The notes below the pieces were generated by a model that made no database searches, had not been told where the DNA came from, and worked only from the letters and a program-made list of their open reading frames with translations. This document shows positions 11,255 to 21,341 of a stretch of DNA of 64,000 bases, piece by piece. Source of the DNA: Streptomyces sp. WZ-12 (GTDB lineage: Bacteria > Actinomycetota > Actinomycetes > Streptomycetales > Streptomycetaceae); contig NZ_CP118574.1 of assembly GCF_028898845.1 (NCBI RefSeq), forward strand, positions 1,240,001-1,304,000, in the 5' to 3' direction. The number at the start of each line of letters is the position of its first letter. Position 1 is the first letter of the stretch. Position numbers and translations under genes: made by a program.

Positions 11255-12607
11255 CTACGGCGCGAGGAGGGCCCGGCCGTACCAGTCGTCGCGGTCCTGT
11301 ACGCCCGGCAGCGCGAAGAAGTAGCCGCCGCCGAACGGCGTGACGTAGTCGACCAGCGGCTCCCCGGCCAGCCGGCGCTGGACGGTCTCGAACTGGCGGG
11401 CCAGGTCCTGTTGGTAGCAGCAGAAGAGCAGGCCCATGTCGAGGTTGCCGTTGGCGTCGGTGCCGCGGTCGTAGTTGTAGGCGCGGCGCAGCAGGCGCTG
11501 GTCGGCGGTGTCGGTGGTGCGGGGGTTGGCCTTGCGGATGTGGCTGTCCAGGGGGATGACGTCGCCCTTGGGGTCACCGGGGTAATCGGGGGCGTCGTGC
11601 TCGTCGTTGCCGTCGAGCGGGGCACCGGTCTCCCGGGCGCGGCCGAACATCCGCTCCTGTTCGGTCAGCGAGACCCGGTCCCAGAACTCCACCAACATCC
11701 GGATCAGCCGGACAACCTGGTAGCTGCCGCCGACCGCCCAGTCCGGCTCACCACCGCCCCTGCCGACCCAGACCAGGTCCCGCATCGCACGGGCCGATCC
11801 GGGGTCGGGGTTGGCGGTGCCGTCCTTGAAGCCGAAGAGGTTGCGGGGGGTGCCGGTGGGCCGGGGCGGGCTGGCGAAGCCGTCCAGCCGCCAACGGACC
11901 TGGAGGGCGCCGCGGGTGTGCCGGGTGAGGTCGCGCAGCGCGTGCAGCACGGTGTCGGTGTCCTCGGCGCAGAGTTGGAGGCTGAGGTCGCCGTGGCACC
12001 AGTCCGCCTGGAGGTCGTCGTCGGGGAAGGTGGGCATGGCGGTCAGCCGGCGGGGGGCGCGGGGGCACAGGCCGAACCGGTCGTCGAAGAGCGAGGAGCC
12101 GACGCCGACGGTCACCGCCAGTGCGCCGGGCGGGAGTTGGGGGCCGAGGATGCCGGAGTCGGCGGGCGGTCCGGTGACGCCGAGCGGCTCGGGGGTGCCG
12201 CCGCCGGTCAGGAAGCGGGCCCGCTCGGTGAGGGTGCGCAGCAGGTCGGCGAGGTCCCGGCGGCCCTCGGTGGTGACGTCGAGGGCGATGAACGCGGTGA
12301 CCCGGCGGGGCGGGGTGAGGACGGCCGCCTGGTGCGGGCCGTGGAACGGGACGGGGGGCGCGGCGCCCAGGAGTTGACCGGCGCCCGGCAGCGGCGGCTG
12401 CGGGACGGGGCCCTCGGCGTGGGGCGCGCGGGCCGATGCGGCGCCGCCGGCGGCGAGTGACGCCCCGCCGGCCACGAGTCCCCCGGCGCCGGCCAGGGCG
12501 GCCCCGCGCAGGAAGCCGCGCCGGCCGACGCCGGAGCGCCGCGCGTCCTGCGTACCGTCGTCGCCGGTGCCGTGGGCTCCGTTGGCACCGTGTCCGGCCT
12601 TGCTCAC
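11255..12607 (-). CDS. efeB: DyP-type heme peroxidase EfeB
   Basis: A 450-residue DyP peroxidase with a Tat signal ([18 protein letters not shown], twin arginine at residues 29-30). The DyP hallmarks are present: GFKDGTANP (distal GxxDG motif) and the proximal heme histidine in SHIRKANPR, then a C-terminal [21 protein letters not shown] block. In EfeUOB systems EfeB works outside the membrane with EfeO to supply iron, and may extract iron from heme. Its GTG start overlaps the efeO stop as GTGA, so it is translationally coupled to efeO. Tat export fits with cofactor insertion before export. Confidence 0.93.
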
Positions 12608-13812
12608 ACCGTCCTCCGCGGATCGCACAAAGTGGCCACCGGGGCCAGCCGTTCCACCAGGTCGCCCACGGCCGCGTTGGTCCGCTGCCGCTCGGGGCGG
12701 CTGAGGCCGTCCAGCGGGGTCCAGCGGCCTCCGCGCCGGAAGCCGTCGAGGAGCCGCCCGGTGCGGTCCAACGCGGCCTGAAGGTAGGGAAGTTCGGGGT
12801 AGCGCGGGGCGAGCAGGGGGCGCAGCCGGGCGAGCACCGCGCGGGTGCCGTCGAGGTTGGCGCGGGCGGTGGCGAGGTTGCTGCCGCTGCCGTAGTCGGT
12901 GCGGCCGGTCAGCTCGAACTGCGCGGTGTTCTCCAGGATTTCGTGGGCGCGCAGGCCGAGCGCCGCCGGGTCCATCCGGGCCTGGGCCCAGTCGTCGCGC
13001 AGCGCGCGCACCGCGTCGGCGAGCGCGGCGGCCGGCGCCCGCAGCCCGGTGACGGACTCGCCGTGCCACAGGCCGTATTCGAGGCGGTGGAAGCCGGCGA
13101 AGGCGGGGTCGTGGACGCCGCCGGCGAGCCCGGCGGTGGTCCCGTTGATCCTCTTGTCCGCGTCGCCGAACTCCCCGTAGGCGGCGCCCAGTCGCTCGTA
13201 GGTCAGATGGGCGGGCAGCCAGGCGGAGCGGGCCGCGGCCGGGTCGCCGGTGGCGACGGCGGTACGGAGGGCGGCGGTCTGCCGGACGAGGGTGTCGAGG
13301 CCGCCGGCTACCCACTTCTGGTAGTCGAGCGCCGGGCCGATCAGGTCGTGTTGGGTGATCGGCGCCGCGGCCGGACCGTCGCGGCCGGGGCCGACGATGC
13401 GGACGGTGGGGCCGGTGACCGCGCTGGCGTCGTCGGGCAGGCAGGTGAAGGCGTAGGCGCCCGGGCCGAGTCGGACCTGAAGGTGGCGGGTGGTGCCAGG
13501 GCCGATGCCCTCCACCTCGCCGTAGACGGGCCCGCCGCCGGCGCCGCGGAGGTAGCTCTCGGCCGGCTGGCTGGAGCCGTTGTGGAGGTCGAAGACCTGG
13601 AGGCCGGGGTGGGGGTGCCGCCAACCGCGGCCGCAGGCGCCCGGATCGACCTCGACGGTGGTGTGCGGGAGGCCGTCGGCGGCGGCCGTGCCGACGCCGG
13701 GGCCGGCGCCGGTGGTCAGCGCGACCGCGGTCACCGCGCCGGCGATCAACAGCGCGCCGCCAGGGCCCCAGACGCGCGGCGACCGCAGCCGCCGCAGGTC
13801 GGCTCGTGGCAC
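12604..13812 (-). CDS. efeO: EfeO-type iron-uptake protein (cupredoxin plus imelysin/M75)
   Basis: A 402-residue exported protein. It has an N-terminal hydrophobic signal or anchor (about residues 14-40), a cupredoxin-like domain (about 50-150) and a C-terminal M75/imelysin domain with the HxxxE motif (AHLTYERLG) and the [13 protein letters not shown] block. EfeO binds iron outside the membrane and passes it to the permease EfeU. The GTG at 13812 has a strong AGGAGG. It is followed directly by efeB. No EfeU/FTR1-like permease is visible in the window, so the permease gene must be elsewhere or be replaced. Confidence 0.9.
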
Positions 13813-15021: not shown

Positions 15022-15798
15022 TTAACGGATCCCCACCAGCACGCAACTGTCGCCGAACTGCCAGACGGGGACGACATGTGCGAAGCCGGCCTCGCGCAGC
15101 AGCGCCGCGTGATCGCTCACCGACAGCCCGTTGTCCGCGGCGCCGTCCCCGTCGCCGACGACCGGCGCGCTCAACCGGCGGCGGCGCTCGGCCAGCGGCT
15201 CGGCCAGCTCCGGCTCGGTCGCCACCCCCGCCCACCACGACTCCCAGTCCTCGTGGTCGCCGTCCCGCAGCCGCCGCGCGCGGCACCGGCCGACGTGGGC
15301 GGCGAGCGCACCGGCGACCGCCCCCGCTTGCGGCAGGTGGTCGCCGTTGACGAGCGCGCCACCGGGCCTTAGCAGGGCGGCGAGTTGGGCGTAGGTGCGG
15401 CGCAGCGCGGGCACCGTGAGGTAGTGCAGCGCGGTGGTGGAGACCGCGGCGTCCAGGGGGCGCCCCAGGGACAGCGCCTCGATCCAACCGTCCGCGCCGA
15501 TCACCGCGTCGACGTACCGGGCGGCGGAGGAGTGGTGGGTGCGGGCCAACTCCAGCAGCAGCGGGTCCATGTCGACCCCGATGACCTCGGCGCCGGGCAG
15601 CCGCTCCACGAGCCGGGCGGCCAACGAGCCCGGGCCGCAGCCGAGATCGACGACCAGCGGCCTCCGCCGACCCGTCGTCACATGCTCGACGACGTCGGCG
15701 ATCACCGTGAACCGCTCCTCGCGGTCGATGGCGTAGCGCCGCTGTTGGCGCTCCCAACGCTCCACCCACCACTCCGCGACGGCCATGCTCAGCCCCAT
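15022..15798 (-). CDS. Class I SAM-dependent methyltransferase
   Basis: A 258-residue soluble methyltransferase: motif I VVDLGCGPGSLAARL, an acidic residue ending the next strand (VIGVDMD), and later motifs (DAAVSTTALHYL, LLRPGGALVNGDHLP). The acceptor is unknown. Starts at 15798 or 15786 (MAVAEWW) are both possible. It is separated by 162 bases from the desulfurase-like gene upstream, and that gap carries a perfect 15-base palindrome, so it probably has its own promoter although it could also receive readthrough from the PLP gene cluster. Confidence 0.85.
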   Translation of the reverse strand: MGLSMAVAEWWVERWERQQRRYAIDREERFTVIADVVEHVTTGRRRPLVVDLGCGPGSLAARLVERLPGAEVIGVDMDPLLLELARTHHSSAARYVDAVIGADGWIEALSLGRPLDAAVSTTALHYLTVPALRRTYAQLAALLRPGGALVNGDHLPQAGAVAGALAAHVGRCRARRLRDGDHEDWESWWAGVATEPELAEPLAERRRRLSAPVVGDGDGAADNGLSVSDHAALLREAGFAHVVPVWQFGDSCVLVGIR

Positions 15799-15856: not shown

Positions 15857-15871
15857 TGGAAACGGTTTCCA
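15857..15871. promoter_or_regulatory. LacI-type palindrome before the methyltransferase
   Basis: TGGAAACGGTTTCCA is a perfect palindrome of two 7-base arms around a single G, with outer GGCT and AGCC at 15848-15851 and 15874-15877. It lies about 60 bases upstream of the methyltransferase start. The shape resembles LacI/GalR operators. No LacI-family gene is in the window. Confidence 0.5.
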
Positions 15872-15960: not shown

Positions 15961-17175
15961 TCATGTCAGGGAGGCGAGCACGGCCAGCAACCGGTCGATC
16001 TCCTCGGGGGTGTTGTAGACGTGCAGGCTCACCCGCACCGAGCTGGCGCGCTCCCCCACGCCCGCCTGACAGTGCCCGTCCGTCCGCACCATGAAGCCGT
16101 GGTCGAAGAGGATGAAGCCGAGGTCGCTCGCGCCGATGTCGCGGTGCCGGAACGTGACGATCCCGCAGCGCTGTTGGACCGGCGAGGCGACTGCCAGGCT
16201 GCGTTGGCACCCCACGACCTCGTAGGCGTCGAGATGGCGCAGCCCCTCGGTCAGCCGGGCGGCCAGCGCGACCGTCCAGCGCCCGATCCGTTCGGTGCCC
16301 GCGGCGTCCAACCAGTCCAACGCGGCCGCCAGGCCGGCGATCCCGGTGGTGTTGGGGCTGCCGGACCAGCCGCCGGGGTGCAGCTCCGGGCCGCGGGTCT
16401 GCCGGGCCCAGACCGCACCCGAACCGGGCAGCGCCAGCGCCTTGTGGCCGGAGAACGCCACGAAATCCACGTCGAGTTCGGCGACCGAGACCGGCAGATG
16501 GCCGACGCTCTGCGCGGCGTCCAGGCAGATCGGCACCTCCGGCCCGAGCACCCGGCGCAGCAGGTGGACGTTCATGTTGCCGCCGTAGACGTGGTGGACG
16601 TGGGTGGCGGCCACGAAACGGGTCCGGGGGCCGACCAGTTGGGCCAGTGCCGCCGGATCGTAGTCCCCGGACGAGGTCTGGTACGGCAGCTCCCGCACCC
16701 GGATCCGCACGCCCTGCCGGTCGAGCAGGTGCTGCGCCTCCAGCCACGGTGCGAGGTTGGCCTCGTGGTCGGCGAACGGGACGACGATCTCGTCCCCGTC
16801 GGCGAGGAGTTCGGGCAGCCAGTCCCGGGCGATCATCCGCAGCCCCTCGGTGGTCCCGCTGGTGAAGTGGACCGCCGAGCGCTCCGGGTCCGGGTCGCCG
16901 AGGAAGGTCTTGATCCGGTCGCGGACGCCGGCCACCAGGGCGGTGGAGGCATTGGCCCACGGGTAGGAACCGCGGCCGGCGTTGGCGTTGGCCGTGGTCA
17001 ACTGGGCCTGTACGGCGTCCAGTACGGCCTGCGGCTTCTGCGTGGTGGCGGCGCTGTCCAGGTACGTCAGCTCCGGGTTGCCGGTGACGATGGGGAACTG
17101 GGCACGCAGCCCGCGCTGCCACGGGCCCAACTCCACCAGGGCGGCGTCCGGTCCGTGCGCGGCGATCGGGGCCAT
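15961..17175 (-). CDS. SufS-like aminotransferase class V / cysteine desulfurase
   Basis: A 404-residue PLP enzyme of the class-V aminotransferase fold. Seen: YLDSAATTQKP at residues 38-48, FTSGTTEGLR, the ring-stacking His137 (FADHEAN), the cofactor Asp (ICLDAAQSVGH) and Schiff-base Lys245 (SGHKALALPGSG). Cys369 in VRTDGHCQAG sits where SufS-type desulfurases carry their persulfide cysteine, so desulfurase activity is plausible. It starts 4 bases after the stop of the rhodanese-fused enzyme, clearly in one operon. I infer that it strips sulfur from cysteine and hands it to the rhodanese domain next door; no suf genes adjoin, so a housekeeping Fe-S role is unlikely. Confidence 0.85.
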   Translation of the reverse strand: MAPIAAHGPDAALVELGPWQRGLRAQFPIVTGNPELTYLDSAATTQKPQAVLDAVQAQLTTANANAGRGSYPWANASTALVAGVRDRIKTFLGDPDPERSAVHFTSGTTEGLRMIARDWLPELLADGDEIVVPFADHEANLAPWLEAQHLLDRQGVRIRVRELPYQTSSGDYDPAALAQLVGPRTRFVAATHVHHVYGGNMNVHLLRRVLGPEVPICLDAAQSVGHLPVSVAELDVDFVAFSGHKALALPGSGAVWARQTRGPELHPGGWSGSPNTTGIAGLAAALDWLDAAGTERIGRWTVALAARLTEGLRHLDAYEVVGCQRSLAVASPVQQRCGIVTFRHRDIGASDLGFILFDHGFMVRTDGHCQAGVGERASSVRVSLHVYNTPEEIDRLLAVLASLT

Positions 17176-17179
17176 CGCG

Positions 17180-18526
17180 CTAATCCCTGACCAGCGGCGC
17201 GCCGGCGTCCCGCCAGGCGATGACGCCCCCGGTGAGGCTGCGCACGTCGGGATGGCCCATGCGGGTCAGCAGCGCCGCGTAACGGGCGGACTGCTCGCCG
17301 ACCGGGCAGACCAGCAGCACGGGCTGCCGGGTGCTGAACGGCAGCCCGCCCCGCACCAGTTCGTCGAAGAGCTGGTCCACGATGTTGATCGCCCCCTCGA
17401 TGTGCAGCGCGGCATAGGCGAACGGGCTGCGCAGATCGACGACGAGCGGCCGGTCCCGCTCCAGCCACTTCTGCGCCTCCTGGGTGTCGATCGCGGGAGC
17501 CGCGGCGATCTCGGCGTCCGTCAGGTCGGCCGGGTCGTTGCGGCGCACCGGCTGCCGGAACAGATCGGGCCGGCGCCGCTTGGTGTAGCTGAGGTAACTC
17601 TCGATCCGGTCACAGACGATGAACACGGCTGATCTGCGCGCCACTTCCTCACCAGCGGCCTGATCCTCCGTCAATTGCTCATCGATCTCCCGAAGATGAC
17701 GCACCGTCCCGTAATACGCGGCACCGCCGGTGGGGCCGGCCAGGATGCCGCAGCGCCGGGCCAGCGCCAGCATCCCCTCGATGGCCTCGTCGGAGCCGAC
17801 CGACTCCACGGTGTCGTACGTCGCCGGGTCGAACAGGCCCACCTCGTGGACCTCGTCGAGGGTCCGGATGCCGGGGATGAAGTCGGACTTGGCGGCGACC
17901 AGCCCCACCACCCGCACCCGGGGGTCGTGCTCGCGCAGCACCCGGGCCACCCCGGTGGACGAGCCGGCGGTGCCCACGCAGGCGACGAAGTAGTCGGGGG
18001 CCCGGCCGTCCAGGTCCTTGACGATCTCCGGGCCGGTGCCAGTGGCGTGCGCCTCGGTGTTGCGGGGGTTGAAGTACTGGTCGGTGTGGAGGTAGCTGGT
18101 GCCGGGTCCGGACAGCTCCCGGTGGAAGAGGGTGAGCGGGTCCTCGGTGTTGGTGGGGTCCAGGCACTCGCTCTGCCCGGGCAGCTCCTCGATCTCCGCG
18201 CCCAGCAGCAGGAGCAGGTCCTTGATCTCCGGTATCCGCATGCGGTTGGTCACGCTCTTGAACGGGAGCCCGTGCATCCCCGCGATCACCGCCAGCGCCT
18301 TGGCGGTGTTGCCGCTGGACAGTTCCACGACCTGGCTGCCGTGCTCCACCGCCTCGGCCAGACCCGGCCGGGCCATGTTCCAGGCCGCGCGGTCCTTCAC
18401 CGATCCGAAGGGGTTGAGCAGTTCCAGCTTGGCGTACAGGTCGATGTGGCGCAGACCGTGCACGGCCGGATCGATCCGTACCAGCGGGGTGTTCCCGATG
18501 GCCTCGGTGATGCTCTCGTACCTCAT
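17180..18526 (-). CDS. Cysteine-synthase-like PLP enzyme fused to a rhodanese domain
   Basis: A 448-residue fusion. Residues 1 to about 310 form a fold-II PLP enzyme of the cysteine-synthase type: Lys44 in LNPFGSVKDRA, the substrate loop ELSSGNTAKAL and a glycine-rich phosphate loop (CVGTAGSSTG). It resembles the SbnA/Y4xP group more than housekeeping CysK. Residues about 345-448 form a rhodanese domain with the persulfide cysteine Cys407 (LVCPVGEQSARYAALL). The ATG overlaps the stop of the decarboxylase as ATGA, and the desulfurase-like gene follows after 4 bases. The natural reading is a beta-replacement enzyme that takes persulfide sulfur from its own rhodanese domain; this is inference. 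Confidence 0.88.
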   Translation of the reverse strand: MRYESITEAIGNTPLVRIDPAVHGLRHIDLYAKLELLNPFGSVKDRAAWNMARPGLAEAVEHGSQVVELSSGNTAKALAVIAGMHGLPFKSVTNRMRIPEIKDLLLLLGAEIEELPGQSECLDPTNTEDPLTLFHRELSGPGTSYLHTDQYFNPRNTEAHATGTGPEIVKDLDGRAPDYFVACVGTAGSSTGVARVLREHDPRVRVVGLVAAKSDFIPGIRTLDEVHEVGLFDPATYDTVESVGSDEAIEGMLALARRCGILAGPTGGAAYYGTVRHLREIDEQLTEDQAAGEEVARRSAVFIVCDRIESYLSYTKRRRPDLFRQPVRRNDPADLTDAEIAAAPAIDTQEAQKWLERDRPLVVDLRSPFAYAALHIEGAINIVDQLFDELVRGGLPFSTRQPVLLVCPVGEQSARYAALLTRMGHPDVRSLTGGVIAWRDAGAPLVRD

Positions 18527-20016
18527 CGCTCTCCCCCTGGACGTGTGATCGGCCAGAACTGCTCGTCGAGGCACCAGCGCCAGGACCCGTCCTCCTCCCA
18601 CGCGGCGACCTTGCGCGCGACGGGCTGGTGCTGCGCGCGGCTGGTCTGGAAGTCCATGCAGTAGCCGGCGGTGTTGGCGAACGCCAACAGCTCGCCGGGG
18701 CGGGGCAGTCGGGGCAGGAACACCATCCGGCGGGTGATCAGGTCGGCCTCCAGGCACAGGCTGCCGGCCAGATAGACCCCCGCCGCGGGGCCGTCGCCGC
18801 CCCGGGTGACGCGGGCGCCGTCCCGCCCGAGCAGCACCGGGTCCAGCAGCACCCCGTGCTCCTCCAGCGCGGCGTCGTCGGCCTTCATCGCCAGCCGCAC
18901 CAGCGGCTCCCCACTGTCCGTGCGGCGCACCTCCAACACCCGGGCGAGCACCAGCCCGCACTGGTCCACCAGCGCCCGGCCCGGCTCGGTGTAGAGGTCG
19001 TAGAGGTTCTCCAGCAGCAGGGTGGCCAGCGAGCGGCCGCCGAACGAGGGGGCCGGCATGGCCAGTAGCTCGTCGAGGTAGCGGGCGCCGGCGACCGGGC
19101 GGTGGGCCGGGTAGAGGCCGAGCGCGCCGCGCAGGGTGCCGCCGTCGTTGCGGAGCCCGTAGCCGTGGCCGCGCCAGGTGAGCGGGGGTCGCTGGCCGAG
19201 CACGGCGGCGGTCAGCTCGGAGGTGTAACGCTCCCATTCGGCCGCGTGCGCGAGGTAGTTGACGCCGAAGCCGCCGCCGATGTCCACCGCCCGCGGCCGC
19301 AGCCCCCGGGCCCGGCAGGCGTCCATGGCCCGGACGCAACCCTCCAGGGCGCGGGCCTTCTCCTCCGGGCTGGTGGTGTCGAGGTGGTAGCCGACGCCGA
19401 GCGGCTCCAACGCGTCGGCGTGCCGCTCGACGGTGTCGAGCAGGGCGTCCAACTCCCCAGCCGGGGTGCCGAAGCGGCTGGGCCGGGACAGCACCCGCAC
19501 ACCGGGCCCGTCGAAGGCGGACAGCCGCAGCACCACCGGTATTCGGGCCAGGTGGTGGGCGCGCACCAGCGCGGCCAGCTCGTCCAACTCGCCGCCGGAG
19601 TCGGCGTTGACGGTGACGCCGGTGCGGGCGGCCAGCCACAGGAACTCGCGGTTCTTCGGCCCGGTCGCCATGATGCGGTCCGGGGTGAACCCCGCGCCGA
19701 GGGCGTGCTGCAGCTCGCCCAACGACGCCACGTCCACCGCCGCGTCGGTCGCCGCGAGCCGCCGCAGCAGCGCGCTGGAACGGTTCGCCTTGTGCGCGAA
19801 GTAGACCCGGCCGCCCAGCCGGTGGGTGCCGTACGCGGCGCGGAACCGCTCGGCGTTCTCCGCGATCTGCTCGGGCAGCACCACGCTCAACGGCGAGCCC
19901 AACGCGTCGACGAGCGAGGGGAGGAAGCCGCCCGCGCCGAGCAGCGCCGCGAGGCGCCGCTCCAGGCGCGGTTCCAGAGTCAGTGGCTCCGGAGACGATG
20001 GCACAGCGGCCGCCAA
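18523..20016 (-). CDS. Fold-III PLP decarboxylase (Y4yA-like)
   Basis: About 497 residues, with the alanine-racemase/ODC-type barrel shared by diaminopimelate and ornithine decarboxylases: PLP lysine in YFAHKANRSSAL near residue 76, the glycine-rich phosphate site DIGGGFGVN and a late cysteine (GSLCLEADL). It is longer than LysA and best fits the Y4yA-like group, named after a rhizobial gene next to the cysteine-synthase-like y4xP; the same pairing occurs here. The substrate is unknown. The start is uncertain: the TTG at 20016 has GAGGGGGG upstream, while a GTG at 20070 and a GTG at 20004 are alternatives. Its end overlaps the next gene (ATGA). Confidence 0.82.
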   Translation of the reverse strand: MAAAVPSSPEPLTLEPRLERRLAALLGAGGFLPSLVDALGSPLSVVLPEQIAENAERFRAAYGTHRLGGRVYFAHKANRSSALLRRLAATDAAVDVASLGELQHALGAGFTPDRIMATGPKNREFLWLAARTGVTVNADSGGELDELAALVRAHHLARIPVVLRLSAFDGPGVRVLSRPSRFGTPAGELDALLDTVERHADALEPLGVGYHLDTTSPEEKARALEGCVRAMDACRARGLRPRAVDIGGGFGVNYLAHAAEWERYTSELTAAVLGQRPPLTWRGHGYGLRNDGGTLRGALGLYPAHRPVAGARYLDELLAMPAPSFGGRSLATLLLENLYDLYTEPGRALVDQCGLVLARVLEVRRTDSGEPLVRLAMKADDAALEEHGVLLDPVLLGRDGARVTRGGDGPAAGVYLAGSLCLEADLITRRMVFLPRLPRPGELLAFANTAGYCMDFQTSRAQHQPVARKVAAWEEDGSWRWCLDEQFWPITRPGGER

Positions 20017-20180
20017 GGGACCCCCCTCGCAGTGGCACGAACTCGACCCGCTCGGTTCGCCGTTAACCACTTCCCGCTCCCGGTGGCCTTTACGCCCGCC
20101 CGTCGCCCCCGGCCGGAGTCGGCCCGCCACCCAGCGCCCGACCGGCGGCGGCGCGCGCCGCGGGGCTCCCCGGACACCGC

Positions 20181-21341
20181 TCAGAGGCGCACCAGGGAGT
20201 TCGGGCCGAGGTCGGCGAGGGTCGGATAGCCGTCCACCGCCATCAGCAGATCGGCCTCCGCGAGCAGCGACCGCAGGACGTGCACCACGCCGTCGGTGCC
20301 GGCGAGCGCCAACCCGTAGGCGTACGGCCGGCCGACCGCGACCGCGGTGGCACCGAGGGCGAGCGCCTTGACCACGTCGGTGCCGGAGCGCACCCCGGAG
20401 TCGAAGAGCACCGGCAGACCGTCGGCGGCGGCCACCACGCCCGGCAGCGCATCGAGCGCGGGGAGGCCGCCGTCGGCCTGCCGGCCGCCGTGGTTGGAGC
20501 AGTAGATGCCGTCCGCGCCACCGTCCCGGGCCCGGCGGACGTCCTCCGGGTGGCTCAAACCCTTGAGGATCAGCGGCAGTTCGGTCAGCGAGCGCAGCCA
20601 GGGCAGGTCATCCCAGGTCAACGGGTTGCGGAAGACGCTGGCGTAGAGGTCGATGGCGGCGGCCGGGTCCTCCTCCGGCGGCTTGCGCAGCCGGGACCGG
20701 AAGACCGGGTCGGAGGTGAAGTTGGCCAGGCAACGGCCGTGCGCCTGGGGTAAGTTGGCGAGGGCCAGATCGCGCGGACGCCAGCCGAGGGTCCAGGTGT
20801 CCAGGGTCACCACGATGCCCTGGAAGCCGGCCGCCTCCGCGCGGCGCACCAGGCTCTCCGCGAACTCCCGGTCGGTCGGGGTGTAGAGCTGGAAGTAGCC
20901 GGGGGTGTCCCCGCACTCGGCCGCGACCGCCTCCATCGGGTCCTCGGCGAAGGTCGAGGCGATCATCGGCACACCGGTGCGGGCCGCGGCCCGCGCGGCG
21001 GCCAGCTCCCCGTGCCCGTCCTGCGCACAGAGGCTCAGCACCCCGACCGGCGCCATCAGCAGCGGCGACGGCAACGTCCGACCGAACAGCTCGACGGTCA
21101 GGTCCCGTTGGGCGGCACCGACCAGCATCCGCGGCATCAGCCCCCACCGCGCGAAGGCCGCGACGTTGGCCCGCTGCGTCCGCCCGTCCCCGGCCCCGCC
21201 GTCCACATACGACCAGACGGCCGGCGGCAACGCGGCCTCCGTACGCGCCGCCAACTCCTCGAACGTCATGGGCAGCGTGGGCAGTTCGCCTTCCAGTCCG
21301 GCCGCGTAGATCTCGTGCTGGTAGTCGCCGAAGTGCGGCAT
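20181..21341 (-). CDS. FMN-dependent alpha-hydroxyacid oxidase (lactate 2-monooxygenase type)
   Basis: A 386-residue FMN TIM-barrel enzyme. Seen: the early DYQHEIY segment typical of lactate monooxygenases, LLMAPVGVLSL, the FMN/substrate block YFQLYTPTD, the active-site CSNHGGRQADGG with the catalytic histidine near residue 293, and the FMN phosphate site DSGVRSGTDVVKALALGA. Family members oxidise L-lactate, mandelate or similar 2-hydroxyacids. It heads the minus-strand PLP cluster, with about 165 bases before the decarboxylase. Codon 197 is TTA (20753-20751), so its translation may depend on bldA. The true substrate may be a product of the cluster rather than lactate. Confidence 0.88.
   Translation of the reverse strand: MPHFGDYQHEIYAAGLEGELPTLPMTFEELAARTEAALPPAVWSYVDGGAGDGRTQRANVAAFARWGLMPRMLVGAAQRDLTVELFGRTLPSPLLMAPVGVLSLCAQDGHGELAAARAAARTGVPMIASTFAEDPMEAVAAECGDTPGYFQLYTPTDREFAESLVRRAEAAGFQGIVVTLDTWTLGWRPRDLALANLPQAHGRCLANFTSDPVFRSRLRKPPEEDPAAAIDLYASVFRNPLTWDDLPWLRSLTELPLILKGLSHPEDVRRARDGGADGIYCSNHGGRQADGGLPALDALPGVVAAADGLPVLFDSGVRSGTDVVKALALGATAVAVGRPYAYGLALAGTDGVVHVLRSLLAEADLLMAVDGYPTLADLGPNSLVRL

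Follow-up and report, generated by a model that had tools for sequence, protein, structure and literature searches.

A conserved cassette of PLP enzymes and a methyltransferase with a Zur-type box in Streptomyces may direct the synthesis of a small zinc ligand

We analyzed a window of 64,000 nucleotides from Streptomyces sp. WZ-12 (positions 1,240,001-1,304,000 of the 9.17-Mb contig NZ_CP118574.1; genome total 9.55 Mb) that holds a group of genes for pyridoxal 5'-phosphate (PLP)-dependent enzymes; coordinates below are those of the window. All genes of the group lie on the minus strand and encode, in the order of reading, a lactate 2-monooxygenase-like flavin mononucleotide (FMN) oxidase (20181..21341; Pfam FMN_dh), a Y4yA-like fold-III PLP decarboxylase (18523..20004; Orn_Arg_deC_N, PF02784), a CysM-like PALP synthase of 448 amino acids fused to a rhodanese domain (17180..18526; PALP residues 6-283, rhodanese residues 348-440), and a SufS-like class-V PLP enzyme of 404 amino acids (15961..17175; Aminotran_5). 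The first-pass annotation had described the last three of these four open reading frames as tightly coupled, which our inspection bore out: an ATGA (18526-18523) is common to the decarboxylase stop and the synthase start, and four bases separate the end of the synthase stop codon (17180) from the ATG of the SufS-like gene (17175). The start of the decarboxylase gene is uncertain, as the longest reading frame reaches 20130, and was taken to lie near 20004-20016. The next gene downstream, 162 bp past the SufS-like stop codon, encodes an S-adenosylmethionine (SAM)-dependent methyltransferase (MT) of 258 amino acids (15022..15798, minus strand; Pfam Methyltransf_25), and a palindrome resembling a Zur box, TGGAAACCGTTTCCA in minus-strand reading, is located at 15857..15871 and covers positions -73 to -59 relative to the start codon of MT.

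To define the conserved genes, we searched genome contigs with a profile of the synthase alignment and kept the best 80 of 580 relatives together with five more loci, giving 85 loci (L and G numbers below denote individual loci and genomes). The genes for the decarboxylase, the synthase, and the SufS-like enzyme, hereafter the trio, were present at all 85, a few of them clipped by contig ends, and MT was present at 76, three of the matches being partial or weak (L045, L058, and L120). The core is contiguous in L115, where a second decarboxylase-like match lies far away. A second set, anchored on the SufS-like gene and comprising 29 loci out of 69 genomes with that gene (1.5-kb flanks), contained the synthase in every case, the decarboxylase in 28, and MT in 27. 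When neighboring gene families were assigned with our own simple gene caller in 86 loci with flanks of up to 10 kb, only the trio and MT reached at least 75 loci, the next commonest family being found in 22. These 86 loci fell into 31 groups sharing at least three neighbor families, the largest with 39 members, and the cassette therefore occurs in many genomic backgrounds. Among 295 Streptomyces genomes, 69 had the SufS-like gene, 73 had MT, and 66 had both; two of the three genomes with the SufS-like gene and no MT found carry a partial MT (L166 and L207). Overall, the comparison shows a conserved unit of four predicted genes, encoding the Y4yA-like decarboxylase, the CysM-like synthase-rhodanese, the SufS-like enzyme, and MT. 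Of the four-gene pathway proposed in the first-pass annotation, the trio thus stood as a cassette and the suggestion that the methyltransferase at 15022 may belong to it was confirmed, but the oxidase, found at 4 of the 85 loci, all in the closest clade, was rejected as a member.

The SufS-like gene was not found in seven of the 73 MT-bearing Streptomyces genomes. Five of the seven were examined (G566 and G630 were left out), of which G496 holds a decayed cassette and G485 a frameshifted MT; the other three are considered below. At L203 (4135-4865), a frameshifted MT with a Zur box upstream adjoins a ZnuA-like gene in a genome in which the SufS-like gene was not found, and this locus is apparently a decayed cassette. 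At L200 (4764-5882), an internal deletion has fused decarboxylase sequence to the final part of the SufS-like gene; MT is retained. The distant loci L042 and L043 (synthase identity 46-49%) keep the trio with an HMA-domain gene between the decarboxylase and SufS-like genes. Besides a CBS-domain protein, their extra genes encode an uncharacterised protein of 341-369 amino acids whose C-terminal domain is of the HMA (CxxC) type, and this variant may possibly concern another metal. In several loci a GNAT acetyltransferase gene directly precedes the decarboxylase gene, in L106 with a Zur-like box upstream of it, and is a possible fifth, tailoring gene.

The palindrome between the SufS-like gene and MT was noticed first and scored afterwards. 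The available text of Choi et al. (PMC5472717) gives tGaNNatSatNNtCa for the Zur box of S. coelicolor and taaTGaNAANNNTTNtCANta as an actinobacterial 21-mer. We scored the 21-mer over the 86 loci (1.76 Mb) with a threshold of 19 of 24, which the window site reaches exactly, and obtained 50 sites. Of these, 32 precede MT and another the displaced MT of L045, five lie before a paralogue of ribosomal protein L28, two before ZnuA, and one before a Fur/Zur-family gene; nine are elsewhere. The reversed sequence of the same loci gave no site. The genome pattern TGRNAANNRTTNYCA, devised after the boxes had been seen, has three matches in the 9.55-Mb genome, namely the MT box and two sites just upstream of ZnuA genes (PF01297), and its backward control gave no match in the whole genome. 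Locus by locus, a box lies upstream of MT in 71 of 75 cases, as a full box in 55 and in 16 as a variant that overlaps the SufS-like stop codon; in the SufS-anchored set the figure is 28 of 29. The window box is followed by TAGCCT, a -10-like hexamer (minus strand), and a TAGnnT hexamer follows the full boxes, with each base kept in at least 65%. The box stays with MT in L205, where MT is about 8.5 kb from the SufS-like gene, and in L113 it precedes the trio although there is none before MT. Hence a Zur-type box occupies the MT promoter region, and on these sequence grounds the predicted control of MT by zinc is well supported. Genes for ZnuA, an ABC-3 permease, CobW, a Fur-family regulator, and paralogues of the ribosomal proteins L31, L28, S14, and S18 recur as neighbors of the cassette (families named from one scanned member each), and 20 of the 86 loci have at least one of them. 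Neither the box nor this zinc-related neighborhood had been noted in the first-pass annotation. One of the boxed ZnuA-like genes of the genome (G000:C1:8884109) is a second such gene with its own strict Zur box; the other ZnuA lies far from it, at about 6.0 Mb. At L041, a few kb from a cassette that lacks the usual MT, a different methyltransferase gene with a strong Zur box (TAATGATAATCTTTTTCATTA) stands beside a Fur/Zur-family gene (1063-1782 and 2459-2827).

The residues expected of active enzymes are present throughout. The best relative of the SufS-like enzyme in the PDB is SufS, and we take from the SufS literature that C369 (TGT, 16071-16069) is its loop cysteine, K245 the PLP lysine, H137 the acid-base histidine, and R364 and R381 substrate arginines. 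K245 and H137 are found in 86 of 86 sequences; C369, R364, and R381 are each found in 85, the remaining row being a gap. The genome has three more SufS-like matches, all weaker (E up to 1e-10), and the cassette gene is therefore an extra paralogue. The rhodanese domain of the synthase (17207..17485, minus strand; PF00581, 60.5 bits) has the active loop CPVGEQS, which aligns with the active loop of GlpE and carries the catalytic cysteine of a six-residue loop as in active rhodaneses. This residue, C407 (TGC, 17308-17306), and the PLP lysine K44 of the PALP domain are conserved in all 84 called genes. The decarboxylase is related to diaminopimelate decarboxylase, with the fold-III type and PLP lysine of a Y4yA-like protein (K72 in 84 of 85, one gap); it is 30-34% identical to plasmid proteins annotated as Y4yA and reaches no NCBIfam cut-off. 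In these alignments, both putative sulfur-handling cysteines and the predicted catalytic lysines are thus invariant apart from gapped rows, in agreement with the intact SufS-like and rhodanese cysteines reported in the first-pass annotation.

Its label for the synthase, SbnA/Y4xP-like, did not hold. With the SbnA model TIGR03945 the synthase scores 134.7 bits, below the cut-off of 349.95, and we rejected the label on this score. The CysM model TIGR01138 gives 163.6 bits (cut-off 394.2), and the synthase stays under the cut-off for every NCBIfam model matched, among the 25 matches listed. Its identity to the cysteine synthase paralogue of the same genome, which itself passes the cysKM cut-off and misses the CysM model, is 38%, versus 27-30% to the PALP enzymes of six plasmid Y4yA modules. 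By sequence comparison the synthase is nearer to cysteine synthases than to SbnA/Y4xP, and we refer to it as CysM-like. An AlphaFold2 model of the synthase (predicted local distance difference test score, 86.5) had a sole match spanning both domains among the 50 structural matches listed, aspergillomarasmine A synthetase, whose product is a zinc chelator. This enzyme was not among the 29 matches listed for the C-terminal part of the synthase.

We consider it somewhat probable, on the gene content and the box, that the cassette encodes a Zur-linked pathway leading to a small ligand for zinc, irrespective of the nucleophile; this claim overlaps with the amine route discussed below. In zinc shortage, Zur would leave the box and MT would be expressed. 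The PALP domain would turn an O-activated serine (O-phospho- or O-acetylserine) into an aminoacrylate on K44, to which a nucleophile would add, most likely sulfur passed from cysteine via C369 of the SufS-like enzyme to C407 of the rhodanese domain. The Y4yA-like enzyme would then decarboxylate the product to a two-carbon amine scaffold, which MT would methylate. The product may well bind zinc, either as a secreted zincophore or as a ligand inside the cell. Granted a Zur-linked zinc-ligand pathway, sulfur as the nucleophile is about evenly balanced in our judgment, and an amine is conceivable at somewhat less than even chance. The sulfur route is possible and contested, because the sole solved two-domain enzyme listed, aspergillomarasmine A synthetase, forms C-N bonds according to the available text describing it (PMC12751119). 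Only tentatively do we put forward the most specific version, a zincophore made through a dedicated persulfide relay in which the SufS-like enzyme loads the rhodanese, sulfur is placed onto a serine-derived aminoacrylate, and the decarboxylase and MT yield a zinc-binding methylated aminothiol; only the last step would then be gated by the zinc signal. We also considered whether the synthase and rhodanese might carry out taurine/cysteate or thiosulfate chemistry, which may be possible, but no partner gene hints at it.

Several points weigh against the zinc-ligand reading. Kinship among Streptomyces inflates the locus counts. We set the threshold of 19 of 24, and chose the search patterns, after the window palindrome had been seen, the left arm of the variant box is off consensus in its 16 loci, and four loci (L107, L108, L113, and L120) have MT with neither box type by strict count. 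Twelve loci of the second set (29 in all) have an MT start region identical to one in the first, and the second set is therefore only partly independent. Three of the genomes with MT and no SufS-like gene (G441, G503, and G570) hold divergent MTs without the box, and the distant variant L042 and L043 has no Zur box. In most loci, the window included, the box precedes MT alone. When we scored the region upstream of the trio with a matrix trained on sites from the same loci (threshold 15; background 95th percentile 1.0; L062 and L091 not scorable), only 9 of 84 scorable loci exceeded 15 (L060, L063, L074, L078, L079, L081, L113, L117, and L118). These include two of the three Nocardia loci (L117 and L118), which lack this MT and have the box before the decarboxylase gene. 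Zinc control of the trio is therefore suggested in a minority of loci and for the rest would have to be inferred. The figure for zinc-regulon neighbors is a raw count, uncorrected for how frequent such genes are elsewhere. Conserved companions of the cassette in the 86 loci with flanks up to 10 kb include neither an exporter nor an uptake gene, which is unusual for a secreted zincophore, and the conserved exporter, uptake system, and nonribosomal peptide synthetase (NRPS) or NRPS-independent siderophore (NIS) genes of a siderophore cluster were not seen across these loci. Lastly, making cysteine from serine with cysteine-derived sulfur would be futile unless the acceptor or the donor differs.

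The synthase could instead use an amine: O-phosphoserine would be coupled to an amino acid through the latter's amino group, the type of reaction in which aspergillomarasmine A synthetase uses Asp and Fda4 uses L-Ala. Decarboxylation would then give an ethylenediamine-type chelator resembling ethylenediamine disuccinate (EDDS), which MT would N-methylate, and the rhodanese domain would be structural or regulatory. This route is doubtful: it leaves the SufS-like enzyme and the invariant cysteines unexplained, the PALP domain is nearer to cysteine synthase, and the cassette has no conserved oxidoreductase, which would be needed for the release of free diaminopropionate. Moreover, six plasmid stretches with Y4yA genes (about 17 kb each) contained no SufS-like, rhodanese, or MT match. 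The plasmid modules L125 and L129 encode a ParB-domain protein, an ornithine cyclodeaminase, a Y4yA-like decarboxylase, and a PALP enzyme, with a MATE exporter in L125, and are probable diaminopropionate-type metallophore or diamine modules.

Alternatively, the product might spare zinc rather than bind it, as a low-molecular-weight thiol, persulfide, or other metabolite that replaces a zinc-dependent function in starvation. Alternative ribosomal proteins are thought to replace such functions during zinc starvation, and paralogues of L31, L28, S14, and S18 are among the cassette neighbors together with CobW; the lack of a conserved exporter and the two sulfur-transfer active sites would also fit. 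As no zinc enzyme bypassed by such chemistry is evident, we regard zinc sparing as unlikely. It is more unlikely still that MT alone belongs to the Zur regulon, next to a trio that serves a sulfur or amine pathway of its own. The window box before MT with none before the trio, and the MT about 8.5 kb away in L205, would agree with this. Against it, MT accompanies the SufS-like gene in 66 of 69 genomes, and two of the other three carry a partial MT; nine loci, among them two from Nocardia that lack this MT, have a box in front of the trio; and the genes show the pattern expected of linked decay, with most of the trio deleted and MT kept in one genome, and a frameshifted MT and no SufS-like gene in another. 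The pathway of the first-pass annotation, running from desulfurase to rhodanese, synthase, decarboxylase, and finally FMN oxidase, matches the gene order in the clade of the window only and is very improbable, because 81 of the 85 loci are without the oxidase and its best PDB relative is lactate 2-monooxygenase (516 bits).

Elsewhere in the window, genes for a DyP peroxidase and an imelysin (EfeO-like) protein lie near the cassette on the same strand (11255-13749). Only the closest clade has them at this position, and they are likely an iron-uptake operon.

No description of the cassette was found in the open-access literature, as judged from titles and abstract starts with subscription papers mostly uncovered, which agrees with the earlier statement that no such pathway was known and is weak evidence of novelty. 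If the zinc-ligand reading is correct, about 23% of the sampled Streptomyces species (69 of 295) would carry an undescribed zinc-starvation pathway that uses only PLP and SAM enzymes, and the short list of Zur-controlled zinc chelators would grow. The absence of NRPS, polyketide synthase, and NIS genes may have hidden the cassette from cluster-finding tools. The bacterial synthase would also be tied to the two-domain fold of the fungal aspergillomarasmine A synthetase and would offer a concrete test of the role of fused rhodanese domains in such synthases, and the Zur box makes the pathway testable through zinc depletion.

The SufS-like enzyme has the fold of SufS cysteine desulfurase together with its PLP lysine, histidine, arginines, and loop cysteine; however, it scores 245.4 bits with the SufS model TIGR01979, below the cut-off of 475.1, and the conserved cassette has no iron-sulfur assembly partner. 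Cysteine synthase B (CysM) differs from the synthase, which has the rhodanese fusion, misses the CysM cut-off, and sits in a Zur-linked cassette. The SbnA/Y4xP and Y4yA modules, of the staphyloferrin B type and on rhizobial, Agrobacterium, and other plasmids, likewise have a Y4yA-like decarboxylase near a PALP beta-replacement enzyme, some with siderophore or efflux genes, but the partners of Y4yA on plasmids are instead an ornithine cyclodeaminase, an opine-type dehydrogenase or FAD/NAD(P)-binding protein and, in three, ParB. Aspergillomarasmine A synthetase (8H4H and 8H4Q) resembles the synthase in carrying a PALP and a C-terminal rhodanese domain on a single polypeptide, the alignment covering both, and differs in its fungal origin, 24% identity, domain orientation (root-mean-square deviation 20), and C-N chemistry; the available texts on it and on Fda4 of Fusarium poae mention no SufS-like, decarboxylase, or MT partner. 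Coelibactin differs in being described, in the accessible part of one report, as a putative non-ribosomal peptide (PMC3430247). A parallel in regulation is offered by coelibactin together with EDDS (aes, Amycolatopsis japonicum), which the available text of a further source names as Zur-controlled metallophores of actinomycetes (PMC6103462) and which, like the pathway proposed here, are small-molecule pathways under Zur.

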